A stretch of DNA of 64,000 nt. It comes from Glaesserella australis. GTDB taxonomy: Bacteria > Pseudomonadota > Gammaproteobacteria > Enterobacterales > Pasteurellaceae. The stretch is from assembly GCF_003260095.1 (NCBI RefSeq), contig NZ_PTPX01000014.1, positions 1-64,000 on the forward strand. Direction: 5' to 3'. The position numbers were made by a program, and so were the translations under genes. Of the stretch, positions 49,241 through 55,104 are shown piece after piece (the stretch's first letter is position 1; every line of letters starts with the position of its first letter). Below the pieces are notes generated by a model. It had not been told where the DNA came from. It made no database searches and was given only the letters and a program-made list of their open reading frames with translations.

Positions 49241-50902
49241 ATGAAAGTCAAAGATTTTGAAAAAGAGTTAGAAGCTCTACGTCATCAGCTGCAACGTAAT
49301 ATCGAAGCCAGCTTTGAGGGTTGGGACGATACACCAAAAGCGATTAGCGAACGCCGTCAGAAAGTTTTAGACCCTGTAAATGGCTTTGAATATTTTGTGC
49401 AAGCCTATTTCCCGCATTATGTTCGCTCAGAGCATAAGTCGCAGTTACACCATTACTTATTTGAGAACTTACCGTTTTCGGTAAGTGATCTAAGTAAATC
49501 GGTGCGTCAAGCGATTGCAGCACCTCGTGGTGAGGCAAAATCAACGATTTGTACGCAATTATTCCCGCTGTGGTGTATGGTTTGCGACCTGAAACGCTAC
49601 ATCATTATTGCAATGGACACCCGTGAGCAGGCTTACGGAATGTTAGAGGCAATTAAAGTAGAAATTGAATCAAATCCTCGTTTAGCGGTTGATTTTCCTG
49701 AGTTGGGTGCAGGTAAGGTATGGCGTGCGGGAGCGATTATTACCAGTAAAAATCAGAAGGTTGAAGCCGTTGGTGCAGGGCAAAAATTGCGTGGTCGCCG
49801 ACACGGTGCTTACCGCCCTGATTTGGTTGTCCTTGATGATATTGAGAATGACGAAATGGTACAAACACCTGAACAGCGTACTAAATTGCATAACTGGGTG
49901 TTAAATGCGGTACTGAAATTAGGTGCGGCTGGCGAGAAGTTCGATGTGATTTATGTTGGTACAATTCTGCATTACGATAGCGTACTTAATCGAATTTTAA
50001 GCACAAAAGGCTGGAAGAAAGCGCATTTTAAAGCGATTTTACGCTTTCCCGATAATATGGCGTTGTGGGACGAATGGGAAAACATCTATCTTTCTGAAGA
50101 TGGCGATGACGACACAATGTCTGACTTGTTCTATCAACAGCATAAAGCCGAGATGGACAAAGGTGCTGTGGTGTCGTGGTTGGCACGTCCTATTCTCTAT
50201 TTGATGAAAATCCGTGCTAGCGATGGGCATAGTTCTTTTGACTCCGAATATCAAAACGACCCTGTAAGCGGTGACGATGCGATTTTTGCCAACAGCTTGC
50301 AATACTGGACAGAGTTGCCTGATGACTTGATTTATTTTGGGGCGTTAGACCCATCTATGGGTAAAGCAGGGGCAAGCAGAGACCCTAGTGCGATTTTGGT
50401 TGGGGGGTATCACCGTGCAAGCGGTAAGTTATATGTGGTAGAAGCACAAATTAAAAAGCGTTTACCGGATTTGATTATTGAAGATGTTATTCGCTTACAT
50501 ACGCAATATAACTGTCATCGCTGGTTTGTGGAGACGGTGCAGTTCCAAGAGTTCTTAAAAACGGAATTAGTAAAGCGTTCTGCGGCACGTGGTAAACCAG
50601 TGCCGGCAACGGCAACCAAGCCGAACAGCGACAAGATGTTACGGATTGAGAGCTTGCAACCGCATATTGCCAACGGTTTGATTTTATTGCACCGCTCGCA
50701 ATCCACCCTTGAGAGCCAGCTTAGACATTTTCCAAAAGCCGACCACGATGATGGTCCTGATGCCTTAGAGATGTTGTGGCGCAATGCGGTAAGTTCATCT
50801 GCGCCAGTGGAGTGGATTTCAGTTAAAGACGGGTTTGACGGTGGTAGTTTTGATGATGACGATGGTTTTAATTTTGGCTCTGGGAGCCGTTGGAGACATT
50901 AA
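49241..50902 (+). CDS. Phage terminase large subunit (Mu gp28-like)
   Basis: 553-aa packaging motor. The ATPase has a Walker A variant APRGEAKST (94-102) and Walker B LVVLDDIE (D199, D200). The nuclease domain starts with ALDPSMGK near 355 and ends with the DDGPDALEM block. A Gly/Asp-rich tail follows. In Mu the motor packages by headful, cutting in host DNA outside the prophage. No good ribosome-binding site precedes the ATG, so coupling to the upstream small gene is likely. Confidence 0.93.
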   Translation: MKVKDFEKELEALRHQLQRNIEASFEGWDDTPKAISERRQKVLDPVNGFEYFVQAYFPHYVRSEHKSQLHHYLFENLPFSVSDLSKSVRQAIAAPRGEAKSTICTQLFPLWCMVCDLKRYIIIAMDTREQAYGMLEAIKVEIESNPRLAVDFPELGAGKVWRAGAIITSKNQKVEAVGAGQKLRGRRHGAYRPDLVVLDDIENDEMVQTPEQRTKLHNWVLNAVLKLGAAGEKFDVIYVGTILHYDSVLNRILSTKGWKKAHFKAILRFPDNMALWDEWENIYLSEDGDDDTMSDLFYQQHKAEMDKGAVVSWLARPILYLMKIRASDGHSSFDSEYQNDPVSGDDAIFANSLQYWTELPDDLIYFGALDPSMGKAGASRDPSAILVGGYHRASGKLYVVEAQIKKRLPDLIIEDVIRLHTQYNCHRWFVETVQFQEFLKTELVKRSAARGKPVPATATKPNSDKMLRIESLQPHIANGLILLHRSQSTLESQLRHFPKADHDDGPDALEMLWRNAVSSSAPVEWISVKDGFDGGSFDDDDGFNFGSGSRWRH

Positions 50903-50905
50903 AAT

Positions 50906-50923
50906 GCCCCACTAAAGTGGGGC
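50906..50923 (-). terminator. Terminator of the minus-strand immunity module
   Basis: GCCCCAC (50906-50912) pairs with GTGGGGC (50917-50923). On the minus strand it is followed by ATTTTAAT. It lies 7 bp past the stop of the last minus-strand gene, and it may also affect late transcription from the left. Confidence 0.7.
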
Positions 50924-50929
50924 GTGAGA

Positions 50930-51136
50930 TTACTTGCTTAAAGTGGTTTTGGCGCATTGCAGGCGGTATTGCAAACCGTCCCCGACTAATCGTAACAAAT
51001 TAGACAGGTGGTAATTGGAGATTTGATCGCTTGTATTATCCACAATCTCTAATAAATGGCTCACGCTATACAAGGCTCCGCTTGCACAATCGAAGCTATC
51101 TAGCGTGTCTTGAACTTGAATAGGTGTGATATTCAT
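50930..51136 (-). CDS. Small protein downstream of antirepressor
   Basis: 68 aa, not recognised. It is helical and fairly acidic (IQVQDTLDSFDCASGALYSVSHLLEIVDN). AAGGGGG precedes the ATG, 9 bp after the ant stop, so the two are one operon. It could be a cofactor of the antirepressor or an unrelated cargo gene. Confidence 0.65.
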   Translation of the reverse strand: MNITPIQVQDTLDSFDCASGALYSVSHLLEIVDNTSDQISNYHLSNLLRLVGDGLQYRLQCAKTTLSK

Positions 51137-51145
51137 ATTGCCCCC

Positions 51146-51787
51146 TTATGCATTTAAGCCAAGTGAAAGTTGATTGTGTTGATTTTGCAAAAGGCGGTGT
51201 GTATTAGGCGAATTGGTTGCTCTGCGCTCTATTAAGCCTAATTCAAACATTTTCGCTAAACGTGTGCCAAGTGCTTTTTTGCCTAAATTAAGCAACTTAC
51301 TAATTTCAGGGTTGCTCAAGCCCATTCCACGATAACGCAAGATTTCTTTTGCTTCAGGATAAGCAATAAAGAAGGCTTGATGAGCTCGCTCAATCAGCAT
51401 TGTCGTTTGGTCTGGGTTATTGAGTAAAAATGGCGGAATTTGTGCCAGTAATTTGGCGTTTTGTTCCGCAAGGGCTTTGGCATTTTTCTCTTGCTCAATG
51501 AAATAACGGCGAGCTTGGCGACCGAGTTCGGAGCGTTCGAGCATACAGAGCTCTTTCGCCATATCAAGAGTTAGATGATATTCAATGCTAGGTCTACCAA
51601 AGAAACCTGTACTTTTCCCCGAAACTGGGGAAAAGTCTAAACCTTCTTGGAAACCGTAATTTGCAATACGATCTTTAATCCAAGTAGAGAAATCTTTGCC
51701 GACTTGTAAGCGAGTATGTAGCTCACGAGCATTAACAAGAAGTGTGGTTTGGTTGGCGATAACGCCGTTGAAGGTAGTGATTGGCAT
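51146..51787 (-). CDS. AntA/AntB-type antirepressor
   Basis: 213 aa. The N-terminal AntA/AntB domain (about 15-95) shows VNARELHTRLQVGKDF, a WIKDRI and the YHLTLDMAKELCMLE signature. The C-terminal half has a helix-turn-helix-like segment (GLSNPEISKLLNLGKKALGTRL). Such proteins neutralise phage repressors and trigger lytic growth in P1-type immunity systems. It is transcribed against the late operon. The leader carries a C4-like RNA, and the bases abutting the ATG are complementary to a loop of that RNA. Confidence 0.88.
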   Translation of the reverse strand: MPITTFNGVIANQTTLLVNARELHTRLQVGKDFSTWIKDRIANYGFQEGLDFSPVSGKSTGFFGRPSIEYHLTLDMAKELCMLERSELGRQARRYFIEQEKNAKALAEQNAKLLAQIPPFLLNNPDQTTMLIERAHQAFFIAYPEAKEILRYRGMGLSNPEISKLLNLGKKALGTRLAKMFELGLIERRATNSPNTHRLLQNQHNQLSLGLNA

Positions 51788-51830
51788 TTTGACATTCCTT
51801 TTGATGGAAATCCCTAAATAACATTTAGGG

Positions 51831-51910
51831 TGGTCGAGAGCTCAAAACTCGTGTCAAATCGAGCGGAATTATTCCCCTTTCGGGTGTTGTATTCTTCGCA
51901 CTCTCGACCA
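51831..51910 (-). ncRNA. C4-like antisense RNA controlling the antirepressor
   Basis: On the minus strand an outer stem TGGTCGAGAG/CTCTCGACCA (51901-51910 with 51831-51840) encloses two hairpins: CCC-GAAA-GGG (51875-51884) and CTCG-N8-CGAG (51848-51863). The 8-nt loop shows TTTGACA (51852-51858), complementary to TGTCAAA directly before the ant ATG (51788-51794). A further hairpin CCCTAAAT/ATTTAGGG (51812-51830) separates it from ant. This fold and arrangement match the C4 RNA of phages P1/P7, which is cut from the ant transcript and blocks ant translation. Confidence 0.72.
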
Positions 51911-52127
51911 TTGATAAAAATTGTTACTTTTTGACCGCTTGTAAATTGCGGATACAAAAAAATCACACTGACGGGGTGAATTAACCGTTTGACATAAGGC
52001 TTTTGAGACCTTGAATAAAAGAGTAACTCTACTTTAAAAGTTAGTCAATAACCTATGCAAAAAAAAGTGTAAATTTTTAAACTTTCCTTGTTTTTGGTGA
52101 ATAAGGAAGTGTGATAAGGAAAAGAAA
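51911..52127. promoter_or_regulatory. Promoter region of the C4/ant module and leader of the portal gene
   Basis: No gene seen. An exact uptake signal is at 51934-51942. On the minus strand, a TTGACT hexamer near 52050 lies 17 bp before a weak TACTCT, a candidate promoter for C4/ant. TAACT and AGTTA flank it as an inverted repeat and could be an operator. On the plus strand AAGGAAAAG near 52117 serves the portal gene. Confidence 0.35.
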
Positions 52128-53792
52128 ATGAGCTGGTTAAATAAAATCACACAAGCAGTGCGAGAAGCATTTGGGCGAACAAATCAAGATGAGCCGTTGC
52201 AAACAGATGAAGCGCAAGTTATGGGTATGGGGCGGATTTTAGATGATCATCCTTCTCGTAAATTAACGCCTCGAAAGTTACAAGCAATTTTTGACGAGGC
52301 TGAAAATGGCAATATCCAAGAGCAAGCGCAGTTGTTTATGGATATAGAGGAGCAAGATGGGGCGATTAGTTCTACCCTTTCCACTCGTAAACGAGCTACG
52401 TTAAAACTAGATTGGTCAATTAAAGCGCCTGAAAATGCAAGCAAAACCGAAGAAGAAATGACACAATCGGTCGAAGCAATGTTTGCGCAAGTGGGTTATT
52501 TAGATGATCTTATTGTGGACTTGATGGACGCTTGTTTGCAAGGTTTTTCGGCAAACGAAATCCAGTGGCAAATGCGTGATGGTAAATGGTTTCCGGTGAA
52601 ATTTATCCACCGCCCTGCCTCGTGGTTTAAGTTGGATAATTACGACAACCCTTTGTTGATTTCGCCTCAAAACCCAATGGGCGAACCGCTTATTCAGCAT
52701 AAATGGATTGTTCACTCACATAAAAACCGCTCTTCGGCATTGGCTCGTAATGGTTTGGGGCGTACGTTGGCGTGGATTTATATGTTCAACTACTACGCCA
52801 TTACCGACTTTGCAGAGTTTTTAGAGCTTTACGGCTTCCCTATTCGCATTGGTAAATATGGTGCTGGTGCGACCAAAGAAGAAAAACGCTCGCTTTTACG
52901 TGCTTTATCTGATATTGGACATAACGCCGCAGGGATTATGCCCGATACAATGGAAATCGAACTGCACAATGCGGCTTCGCAGTCTATTTCGAGCAATAAC
53001 CCGTATTTGCAGATGACGGATTGGGCAGAGAAAATGTCTGCCAAAATGATTCTTGGGCAAACGCTCACGAGCGGTGCAGACGGTAAAACCTCCACCAATG
53101 CTCTTGGTAAAGTGCATAATGAGGTGCGTGAGGATTTATTAGCTTCAGACGCTAAACAACTTGAACAGACCATTAACCAGCAGTTAATTATGCCATTCTT
53201 GCTGATTAACTTTCCGAACATCGACCCAAGCCGTGTGCCTGTGTTCTCGTTTGATTTGCAAGAATATGAGGACATTAAGACCTTTGCCGAAGCGTTGCCG
53301 AACCTTGTGAATCACGGTATGCGAATTTCGGTAGCCTGGGCGCACGAGAAAACAGGTATTCCAATGGCGGGCGAAGATGAAGAGATTTTAAAACCGCTTC
53401 AAAGTGGTTTTAAAACAGTCGAAAATCCTGAAGATTTTGCAAAAAATCAAGGAAAAAAGACCGCTTTAAGTGAGGGTTGGAATGCTTGCCCCTGTGGCTG
53501 TGGTGGCAAACTGCACGCCCTTTCAGCAGAGAACAAAACAGGTATTGCCGAACAAGATGAATTGGATAATGCTCTTTCAATGGCTTTTGGAGATGTAGAT
53601 TTTAATAAACAACTTGACCCAATTACTCGTGCATTAACGGCTAAGTTGATGGCGTGCAATTCGTATGAAGAAGCGTTTGCCGCACTCTCGGCAAGTTATC
53701 CAACATTAAGCAGTGAAGATCACGAGCGTTATTTAGCGAATGCACTCTTTTTGGCAGATTTGTTAGGAGCAAGCAATGCCGAACGCACCTAA
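52128..53792 (+). CDS. Portal protein (DUF935, Mu gp29-like)
   Basis: 554 aa. Forms the dodecameric portal ring at the head vertex through which DNA passes. DUF935 segments are visible (GRILDDHPSRKLTP, the QGFSANEIQWQM block, FIHRPASWF and RNGLGRTLAWIYMFNYYA). Near the C-terminus a CPCGCGGK cluster adds three cysteines, possibly metal-binding. It overlaps the next gene by 17 bases. Confidence 0.93.
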   Translation: MSWLNKITQAVREAFGRTNQDEPLQTDEAQVMGMGRILDDHPSRKLTPRKLQAIFDEAENGNIQEQAQLFMDIEEQDGAISSTLSTRKRATLKLDWSIKAPENASKTEEEMTQSVEAMFAQVGYLDDLIVDLMDACLQGFSANEIQWQMRDGKWFPVKFIHRPASWFKLDNYDNPLLISPQNPMGEPLIQHKWIVHSHKNRSSALARNGLGRTLAWIYMFNYYAITDFAEFLELYGFPIRIGKYGAGATKEEKRSLLRALSDIGHNAAGIMPDTMEIELHNAASQSISSNNPYLQMTDWAEKMSAKMILGQTLTSGADGKTSTNALGKVHNEVREDLLASDAKQLEQTINQQLIMPFLLINFPNIDPSRVPVFSFDLQEYEDIKTFAEALPNLVNHGMRISVAWAHEKTGIPMAGEDEEILKPLQSGFKTVENPEDFAKNQGKKTALSEGWNACPCGCGGKLHALSAENKTGIAEQDELDNALSMAFGDVDFNKQLDPITRALTAKLMACNSYEEAFAALSASYPTLSSEDHERYLANALFLADLLGASNAERT

Positions 53793-55104
53793 ATTTGTGA
53801 TTGGTTTTGAGCCTACGCAGGCGATTGAATACCTGAAACAGCGTCGCCTTCTGGTAGGTAAAATCAAGAAAAAGAAAATCTATGACTCTGCATTAGCTCG
53901 TGCGGTTACGATTTCTAAAATGACTAATCTTGATATAACACAAGATATTTATGCCTCCCTTGAGCGAGCACTCAAGGAGGGCAAATCGTTAGCAAATTGG
54001 AAAAAAGAGCTAGTCGGCGAACTGGAGCGAAAAGGCTGGATTGCAGGACACGATAAACGTATTAGCAAAGGCATTGACGGCAAACTCATTGCTAACCCTC
54101 AAGATGGCGAGTATTTCGGCACACCTCGCCGTTTGAATACCATTTATCGGGTAAACACTCAGCAAGCCTATTCTGCTGCACGTTATCAACGCTATATGGA
54201 TAATGTGGATAACCGCCCTTATTGGCAATATTCCGCAGTCGGCGACCAGCGCACACGCCCCGCTCATTTGGCATTAAATGGGCGAGTTTATCGCTATGAC
54301 GATCCGTTTTGGAGCACATTTTATCCGCCGAATGGTTTTAACTGCCGATGTACGGTCATCGCATTAGGCGAGCGTGATTTGACTCGTAAAGGGCTAGAAG
54401 TTGGCTCAAGCGAGGGGAAACTGGTCAAAGCCAAACGTCCTAAAGACAAACAGAGCAATCAAGAAACTACGACAGGTTTTGTCTTGCCTGATGGTCGTAT
54501 TTTGGCAACAGACAAAGGCTTTGATTACAACGTGGGGCGTTTGACCTACAAGCCGAATTTAGACCTGTATGCTGAATCACTTGCTCATCAATTTGCGAAA
54601 TCGGAGATGAGTGGAGCGGAGTTTAAGTTAGGTTACGAGCGATTTGAAAAAGCCTATTTTGCTGAAAAAGCAAAACTAGGGTTTGAAAAAATGCAGAAAA
54701 TTGATGATAAGCAAGAATTGATTTTGGTGCAAAATCTCACATCTGTGAATTTTCATTTTGCTGCTGGGCGTTTATCAGATGCAGACACAGCATTATTGAA
54801 TACTGAAGTCTCGACAGTCTGGTTATCAGACCAAACATTGGTAAAGCAGTTTAATAGTCGTTTGGGGGATCCTAATTTTGATTTTGAAAGTTATCAGAAT
54901 GTGCCTGATACAATATTTTCGGCTGATAATATCTACAAGACAAATGATGGACGAGTGATTCTTATTAAGAAAATCAATGGACAGATTTTTGAGGTTGTCT
55001 TTAAGTATTTGTCAAATACAAAAGAAAATTTTTTGCTGTCAGCACGATGGGCAAATGAGAAAAACTTACGTTCGGAAATAAAAAGGTATGAGATTGTGCG
55101 GTAG
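53776..55104 (+). CDS. MuF head morphogenesis protein with PBECR-like nuclease tail
   Basis: 442 aa. The MuF/gp30 minor head domain covers roughly 1-210, ending in the characteristic FNCRC motif (C190, C192) after a Q-R-T-R-P-A-H block. The extra C-terminal part (about 320-442) contains TVWLSD (347-352), a PDTIFSADNIYKTNDGRVILIKK segment, and an FLLSARWANEK end. This layout resembles the PBECR (phage Barnase-EndoU-ColicinE5-RelE-like) nuclease domains fused to MuF proteins, probably injected with the DNA. Assignment of the nuclease fold is by pattern only. Confidence 0.85.
   Translation: MPNAPKFVIGFEPTQAIEYLKQRRLLVGKIKKKKIYDSALARAVTISKMTNLDITQDIYASLERALKEGKSLANWKKELVGELERKGWIAGHDKRISKGIDGKLIANPQDGEYFGTPRRLNTIYRVNTQQAYSAARYQRYMDNVDNRPYWQYSAVGDQRTRPAHLALNGRVYRYDDPFWSTFYPPNGFNCRCTVIALGERDLTRKGLEVGSSEGKLVKAKRPKDKQSNQETTTGFVLPDGRILATDKGFDYNVGRLTYKPNLDLYAESLAHQFAKSEMSGAEFKLGYERFEKAYFAEKAKLGFEKMQKIDDKQELILVQNLTSVNFHFAAGRLSDADTALLNTEVSTVWLSDQTLVKQFNSRLGDPNFDFESYQNVPDTIFSADNIYKTNDGRVILIKKINGQIFEVVFKYLSNTKENFLLSARWANEKNLRSEIKRYEIVR

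Follow-up and report, generated by a model that had tools for sequence, protein, structure and literature searches.

Among described systems, the closest to the element reported here is the C4 RNA of phages P1 and P7 (RF01695), a three-way junction with two antisense elements, one in a loop and one in the J3/1 strand, which have their target sites both ahead of the next gene (a2b2) and in a leader copy (a1b1), with an antirepressor gene downstream. The P1 record annotates, in order, a1, b1 (putative), C4, a2, b2 and icd, and the passages available from PMC5320573 report that C4 is cut out as a separate RNA by RNase P. A second family, sRNA-Xcc1 (RF02221), had been linked to plant disease, according to the literature examined. 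The window analysed here, a 64,000-nt stretch of Glaesserella australis (contig NZ_PTPX01000014.1, positions 1 to 64,000), carries a member of this second family directly upstream of, and on the same strand as, an AntA-type antirepressor gene (ant), with which it is presumably co-transcribed. The module that holds both, at 50906-52048 of the minus strand, is very probably a self-contained antirepressor switch under a two-site sRNA-Xcc1 antisense RNA that works like P1 C4. A literature search, mostly of titles, abstract openings and passages, returned no link of sRNA-Xcc1 to C4 or to antirepressors; C4-type control exerted by a separate RNA family, sRNA-Xcc1, is therefore rated as a new variant.

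The RNA matches the sRNA-Xcc1 model over its full length (positions 1-87) with 73.6 bits against a gathering cut-off of 53 (E 1.6e-11). The initial annotation had proposed a P1-like C4 RNA over an antirepressor, to be checked by a match to the Rfam C4 model; that model gives no match in the window even at E up to 10, and C4 was rejected as the name of the RNA in favour of RF02221, while the C4-like antisense function over the antirepressor gene is strongly supported, at the level of sequence, by family covariation and by the layout of P1. The isrK model (RF01394) gives no match in the window at its gathering score, nor does the stretch 51700-52000 yield one when E is raised to 10. The three-way junction earlier read in the leader agrees with the predicted fold of the 82-nt segment 51830-51911 (-31.4 kcal/mol, z -5.26, 0 of 200 shuffles as stable), the outer stem pairing TGGTCGAGAG at 51901-51910 with CTCTCGACCA at 51831-51840. 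The elements of the module that bear on its control are as follows.

51831..51910, minus strand: sRNA-Xcc1-type three-way-junction RNA (Rfam match 51824-51909).
51852..51858, minus strand: antisense element 1, the P3 loop, TTTGACA.
51841..51847, minus strand: antisense element 2, the J3/1 strand, TTTTGAG.
51799..51804, minus strand: ant-leader target of J3/1 (a2-like), TCAAAA, overlapping the Shine-Dalgarno (SD) sequence AAGGA; duplex -3.7 kcal/mol.
51788..51794, minus strand: ant-leader target of the P3 loop (b2-like), TGTCAAA, abutting the ATG; duplex -6.9 kcal/mol.
51146..51787, minus strand: ant, AntA-type antirepressor of 213 residues (PF08346, E 1.4e-27; phrog_5817 anti-repressor, E 3.1e-67), with its ATG at 51785-51787 as read on the minus strand.
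52001..52007, minus strand: leader target of J3/1 (a1-like), CTCAAAA, complementing TTTTGAG.
51988..51994, minus strand: leader target of the P3 loop (b1-like), TGTCAAA, complementing TTTGACA and followed by CGG at 51985-51987.
51956..51979, minus strand: terminator-like hairpin TCAC/GTGA, then seven T; weak, -2.1 kcal/mol.
52043..52048, minus strand: candidate -35 box TTGACT, read directly, with a 17-nt spacer.
52020..52025, minus strand: candidate -10 box TACTCT, 3 of 6 consensus bases, weak alone.

Reread on the minus strand, all coordinates in the initial annotation (outer stem, loop, TGTCAAA and ATG) are correct, and the loop TTTGACA is the exact complement of the TGTCAAA that abuts the start codon, as had been claimed. 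Beyond this pair, TTTTGA of J3/1 is complementary to TCAAAA at the SD, and both target sites are duplicated in the leader; the initial annotation overlooked this second pair as well as the leader copy. There, the order is CTCAAAA-gcctta-TGTCAAA-CGG, the weak hairpin and T7, and the -10 box ends 12 nt ahead of the leader site. On the joint score described below, the window reaches 13 at the ribosome-binding site (RBS) and 14 in the leader. A lone 7-nt match means little, and the weight of the case comes from a test across the family.

The loci for this test comprise (i) RF02221 loci from relatives and from the phylum and (ii) loci with an exact core pattern in genomes and viral contigs, taken among the matches listed, diverged members being under-sampled. 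In all, 273 of 284 core matches were parsed, giving 244 unique loci and 165 clusters; the other 11 lay too close to the locus end or had a P1 or P3 that was not found. Scoring took the best pair of exact complements, in fixed order and neither shorter than 4 nt, between the RNA tail (P3 loop followed by J3/1) and the 110 nt downstream, with the downstream DNA of other loci (swapped) and shuffled DNA as controls. The P1-stem/P3 parser is crude: it mis-parsed L412, and the RBS pair that it returned for L408 differs from the one seen by eye. A downstream score of at least 13 is reached by 94 of 165 clusters (57%, a figure that includes five clusters with a match unlike sRNA-Xcc1) against 2.2% of swapped and 1.9% of shuffled pairs, and a score of at least 14 by 35% against 0.5% and 0.5%; the cruder measure of the longest single match separates less (observed mean 7.17 vs 5.59 swapped). 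Of the 132 clusters with a downstream score of at least 11, 122 show an ATG open reading frame (ORF) of at least 30 codons past the site. The loop site of 86 of these ends 7-12 nt ahead of the ATG and that of 16 others 0-6 nt ahead; it overlaps the ATG in 3 and is more distant in 17. The window, with its score of 13, belongs to the start-codon-abutting type.

The leader copy was scored over 230 nt upstream at the 128 loci with full upstream sequence and a downstream score of at least 11, and 105 of them (82%) reach at least 13, compared with 6.6% of swapped and 4.9% of shuffled pairs. The arrangement around it recurs as well. Among the 118 loci with a leader score of at least 12, the order is J-site, gap, loop-site, with CGG next in 99; 106 have four or more consecutive T no more than 75 nt past the leader site (mostly 24-33 nt), and promoter-like pairs (at least 9 of 12 matches) precede the site in 54%, against 4% for shuffled DNA, with the -10 end mostly 11-16 nt ahead of it.

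An unconditioned test used 156 clusters, comprising 23 that are Xanthomonad-type by RNA sequence rather than by taxonomy and 133 others; L160, L163, L169, L175 and L242, whose matches did not resemble this RNA by eye, and four clusters with short upstream sequence were left out. Scores of at least 13 were obtained in the leader for 125 of the 156 and at the RBS for 91. Outside the Xanthomonad type, 76 of 133 clusters have both copies at 13 or above, compared with 18 of 1984 swapped pairs; with the threshold lowered to 12, the figures become 106 of 133 and 59 of 1984. The same metric, applied to a control set of 10 Rfam C4 loci, recovers both copies in 10 of 10, with downstream scores of 14-19 and upstream scores of 12-17, swapped C4 pairs reaching at least 13 in 2.2% and 6.7% of cases (downstream and upstream, respectively); phage P1 itself gives 15 downstream and 14 upstream, and its leader shows by eye the same arrangement of CGG, hairpin and T.

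Relatives of the window's antirepressor display how specificity changes while Ant is kept. Viral loci encoding such relatives number 80, in 17 of which the parser recognised the RNA, 14 of them distinct. Among these ant-linked loci the RNA loop tracks the changes of the leader and RBS sites: both copies of the loop site read TGTCAAA in the window, TACCATA in L331 (Ant 53% identical) and CGAAACA in L330 (54%), and L329, with an Ant 84% identical, has the loop TTTATTGTG and carries CACAATA in its leader as well as at its start codon. Scores of at least 13 are found at the RBS in 12 of the 14 and in the leader in 12, against 7.7% and 14.3% of swapped pairs; the exceptions are a tandem locus with neither copy (L334), one with an RBS score of 11 (L343) and one with a leader score of 12 (L337).

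In the mechanism that we propose, the weak putative promoter would give rise to one transcript comprising the leader sites, the terminator-like hairpin, the sRNA, the second copy of the sites, ant and the partner gene. The sRNA would be excised from this transcript, by analogy with C4, build up in the lysogen and act in trans on later transcripts. There, its loop and J3/1 strand would pair with the SD and start region, a pairing strongly supported by covariation, and so block ant translation, and would pair with the leader copy, a pairing supported by the family test, where termination at the hairpin might follow, as in the analogous case of P4 CI. Once the RNA is titrated or overwhelmed, Ant would be made and would inactivate a repressor; which repressor Ant meets, and the two layers of immunity that the initial annotation envisaged, are matters of inference.

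Several observations weigh against a C4-like switch at this locus. In the window, the pairing of J3/1 at the RBS is limited to 6 bp (-3.7 kcal/mol), the hairpin of the leader is weak, the leader taken as a whole has a predicted fold no more stable than its shuffles (z 0.29), and the poor promoter did not come up in the promoter scan. Across the families, the 23 Xanthomonad-type clusters are without the RBS site (mean 10.04 vs 10.08 swapped), 2 of 10 C4 controls reach only 12 in the leader, a score attained by 18% of swapped Xcc1 pairs, and swapped pairs include related loci, many J3/1 strands sharing a TTCGAA-like sequence, which raises the background. In addition, the leader copy could be a decoy rather than an attenuator: a terminated, IsrK-like leader RNA would bind and inactivate the antisense RNA, and short transcripts would thereby turn ant on. 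Such a role has a parallel in Gifsy-1: there, the antirepressor downstream is activated in trans by the short IsrK RNA, which according to the authors has sequence complementary to processed STnc1160 and which they liken to P4 SeqA (PMC4825925). A decoy would also suit leader sites that score at least as high as RBS sites (13 or more in 125 vs 91 of the 156 clusters). Nevertheless, the fixed distance from leader site to T-run and the precedent of P4 CI suit attenuation equally well, the Xanthomonad-type cassettes, having no RBS site, leave nothing to protect in cis, and constitutive STnc1160 strengthened rather than weakened the growth arrest caused by IsrK in the Gifsy-1 study (PMC4825925), so that we regard a decoy as rather unlikely.

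That the structure acts solely in cis, as a riboregulated 5' untranslated region of ant with no separate antisense RNA, would be in keeping with the sRNA and its targets standing in line on one strand, where intramolecular pairing is possible. It is an improbable account, given that separate RNAs of 88-89 nt have been observed for members of the family (PMC2996969 and PMC5331693, in the parts available) and that the closed three-way junction with exposed elements resembles C4, itself described as separately excised in the available passages of PMC5320573. A trans-acting virulence sRNA whose place before ant is incidental draws on the reported control of sRNA-Xcc1 by HrpG/HrpX (Chen 2011, as cited by others) and on 15 copies in Aeromonas salmonicida proposed to be virulence-linked (PMC8780938). 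This we judge very improbable: of 156 clusters, 125 show a match of the variable loop and J3/1 to the leader, and 91 to the next gene, with a score of at least 13; where an RBS site is present, antirepressor types lead among the annotated genes that follow; and the best trans matches of the 23 Xanthomonad-type RNAs in the RBS regions of other loci exceed the shuffled maxima in no case except L091 (to L237, 16 vs 12-13). Finally, single 7-nt matches near an SD are common, and 19% of swapped pairs reach a score of 11; yet swapped controls keep the SD sequence and only 2.2% of them reach 13, a site in the leader, ahead of the RNA, is matched by the loop too, and among relatives the loop and its two sites co-vary. 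Complementarity by chance, or from a conserved SD or start-codon sequence, is rejected by the swapped and shuffled controls and could hardly be the explanation.

The Xanthomonad-type clusters that lack the RBS site retain the leader copy (mean 14.6 vs 11.1 swapped), and translational control is thus not universal in the sRNA-Xcc1 family. In the clade that gave the family its name, the RNA looks, on sequence, like a leader-directed regulator of a cassette gene, a reading drawn from the sampled clusters rather than from the original X. campestris 8004 locus. The genes that follow the RNA were taken from 154 references for the 165 clusters after removal of repeats. All 113 with an RBS score of at least 12 were scanned, and of the 41 below 12 27 were scanned, 14 being omitted (false cores, tandem first copies, short ORFs and others). 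The 113 show Pfam domains Bro-N (28), P22_AR_C (13), Rha (13), KilA-N (11), P22_AR_N (9), AntA (9) and ORF6N (4), counts that overlap, and their largest PHROG group is phrog_245, anti-repressor Ant, with 41 members; the 27 low-scoring ones include 18 of the XAC0095 family and one SymE.

Of 398 genomes sampled from the phylum, 58 gave an RF02221 match, which in 40 lay above the family cut-off. Two single genomes of the window's family are rich in it, G023 with 28 sRNA-Xcc1 matches, many of equal score, beside 33 C4, and G015 with 10 beside 6 C4. A true Rfam C4 (62.2 bits) lies elsewhere in the genome of the window (G000:C21:16092-16180, minus strand), and the host therefore has both kinds of RNA. 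Named phages also carry the RNA, including Escherichia phages PhiR5_2 and Rac-SA53, Mannheimia phage 1152AP2, Pasteurella phage Pmp1 and Aggregatibacter phage S1249, with scores of 13-15 in the leader and 12-15 at the RBS, the returned pair in S1249 not standing at the ATG. PhiR5_2 (L411; recorded host E. coli K-12 MG1655) has tandem sRNA-Xcc1-antirepressor modules at 284-364 and 820-899 with differing loop specificities. In S1249 (L408), an sRNA-Xcc1-like RNA at 2613-2690 of the reverse strand precedes an annotated Ant beside anti-termination protein Q, with a leader score of 14. As to expression, the available sections of the reports give the Xanthomonas RNA 88 nt by end mapping and about 100 nt by Northern (PMC2996969), and the E. 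coli O157 RNA 89 nt with 40293 transcriptome reads, 290 footprint reads and a ribosomal coverage value (RCV) of 0.02 (PMC5331693). The O157 copy serves as expression evidence only, that study having mapped to NC_002655; at its printed coordinate, no sRNA-Xcc1 was found in the O157 assembly read, which is another record.

The module lies within a Mu-like prophage, and its remaining part and its neighbours are as follows.

50930..51136, minus strand: small partner gene of 68 residues (phrog_15345, E 3e-27), no function assigned.
50906..50923, minus strand: intrinsic-terminator-like hairpin at the module end, 3 nt past the terminase stop codon.
49241-50902, plus strand: terminase.
52128-53792, plus strand: Mu-type portal.

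The terminase, the portal and a gpF-like gene flank the ant module (50906-52048, minus strand) on the opposite strand; strands and domains agree with the initial annotation, which had placed the antirepressor and its small partner against the late operon, between terminase and portal. A sequence search of the PDB with Ant gave no match at E 0.01. The Mu gpF-like protein (53776-55104, plus strand) carries a C-terminal PBECR3 nuclease-like domain at residues 329-430 (E 2.7e-7), possibly a toxin-type fusion on a head protein.

A portal search over 80 genomes returned 18 loci besides that of the window, of which 13 with a terminase match as well were used, namely L309-L320 from the genomes of 12 relatives and L324 from elsewhere in the same genome; five, with distant portal matches and no terminase match in the fetched stretch, were set aside. 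From the aligned end of the terminase to the aligned start of the portal, these 13 Mu-like loci span 3 to 138 bases, and none of the 13 has a match to ant or the small gene at the junction. L324 (G000:C3:48208-49806, minus strand) is a second Mu-like prophage of the same genome, its portal 58% and its terminase 88% identical, with a junction free of the ant module. The viral contigs L327, L328 and L329 carry the sRNA, ant and the small gene, reversed, at the same terminase-portal junction; L327 is identical to the window in these genes and is probably the same or a near-identical prophage, and L328 and L329 are diverged phages (terminase 71-72%, portal 51-58%). By this comparison of gene order, the ant module was inserted in reverse at the terminase-portal junction, and the backward insertion into the late operon described in the initial annotation stands.

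The small gene beside ant in L328 and L329 is 88-90% identical to that of the window, with Ant at 84-85%, and L021 has a related ant (49%) and small gene (74%) at a different locus. Between these modules, the phrog_15345 gene is at least as conserved as ant; hence, judging from sequence conservation, it may belong to the switch. Vibrio phage H20 has, reversed amid tail-region genes, a match resembling sRNA-Xcc1 with KilA-N and anti-repressor genes behind it.

These results give a testable function to an Rfam family so far treated, in the parts of the literature examined, as a virulence or trans-acting sRNA, and tie it to classic C4 control; the mechanism and superinfection specificity could be measured directly in pairs with naturally swapped loops and in isolated phages such as PhiR5_2. 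In Xylella fastidiosa, sXF1-5 are clustered island copies of sRNA-Xcc1 reported to occur in vesicles, with predicted plant targets (PMC12189769, in the portion available), and the family result suggests that phage-type cis targets deserve the first check. Tentatively, and with the balance leaning somewhat against so broad a scheme, sRNA-Xcc1 and C4 might be two branches of one large class of re-targetable two-site antisense RNAs, in which the loop would be a swappable immunity tag that changes together with both target copies while the antirepressor stays. The module would then be a portable immunity class, with the RNA of a resident prophage silencing the antirepressor of any phage, incoming or co-resident, that bears the same tag, and the Xanthomonad-type members would be copies whose RBS site has been lost and which have turned to attenuating accessory genes.

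Compared with known systems, the window has several relatives. The P4 CI RNA, with seqA and seqC, is by description a processed antisense RNA with sites on either side on its own transcript (PMC4825925); the action described for CI is premature termination of transcription, whereas the window also has a site at the RBS and start codon. IsrK/STnc1160 of Salmonella Gifsy-1 resembles it in the terminated leader, the processed complementary RNA and the antirepressor downstream (PMC4825925), but the window has no isrK match and the reported action of IsrK is activation; an isrK model match does lie upstream of a C4 in L038. The Group 1 sRNAs of Acinetobacter baumannii, likened to the window by description, are C4-like, abundant and apparently processed, with a variable a' region, and fit the C4 motif according to their authors (PMC5320573, available passages). 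Xanthomonas sRNA-Xcc1 matches the same covariance model above the gathering score and shares the leader copy of the target sites, a feature found here and outside the published definition of the family; it differs in having no RBS copy and in standing mostly before XAC0095-family genes, whereas the member in the window precedes an antirepressor. With C4, the window has in common the three-way junction, the two elements directed against RBS-proximal sites (score 13, the J3/1 part being 6 nt), the leader copy (14) and the antirepressor downstream. Besides the lack of a C4 model match, the differences are that the loop site abuts the start codon, that ant follows directly with no icd, and that P2 of sRNA-Xcc1 has a conserved AAUACAA...GGGGAAU around a CCC/GGG hairpin where C4 has the C4 hairpin; Rfam assigns C4 to clan CL00128 and sRNA-Xcc1 to none. 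We conclude that sRNA-Xcc1 and C4 are sister kinds of RNA, and that at this locus the former serves as a two-site antisense RNA silencing ant, with presumed processing and repression.

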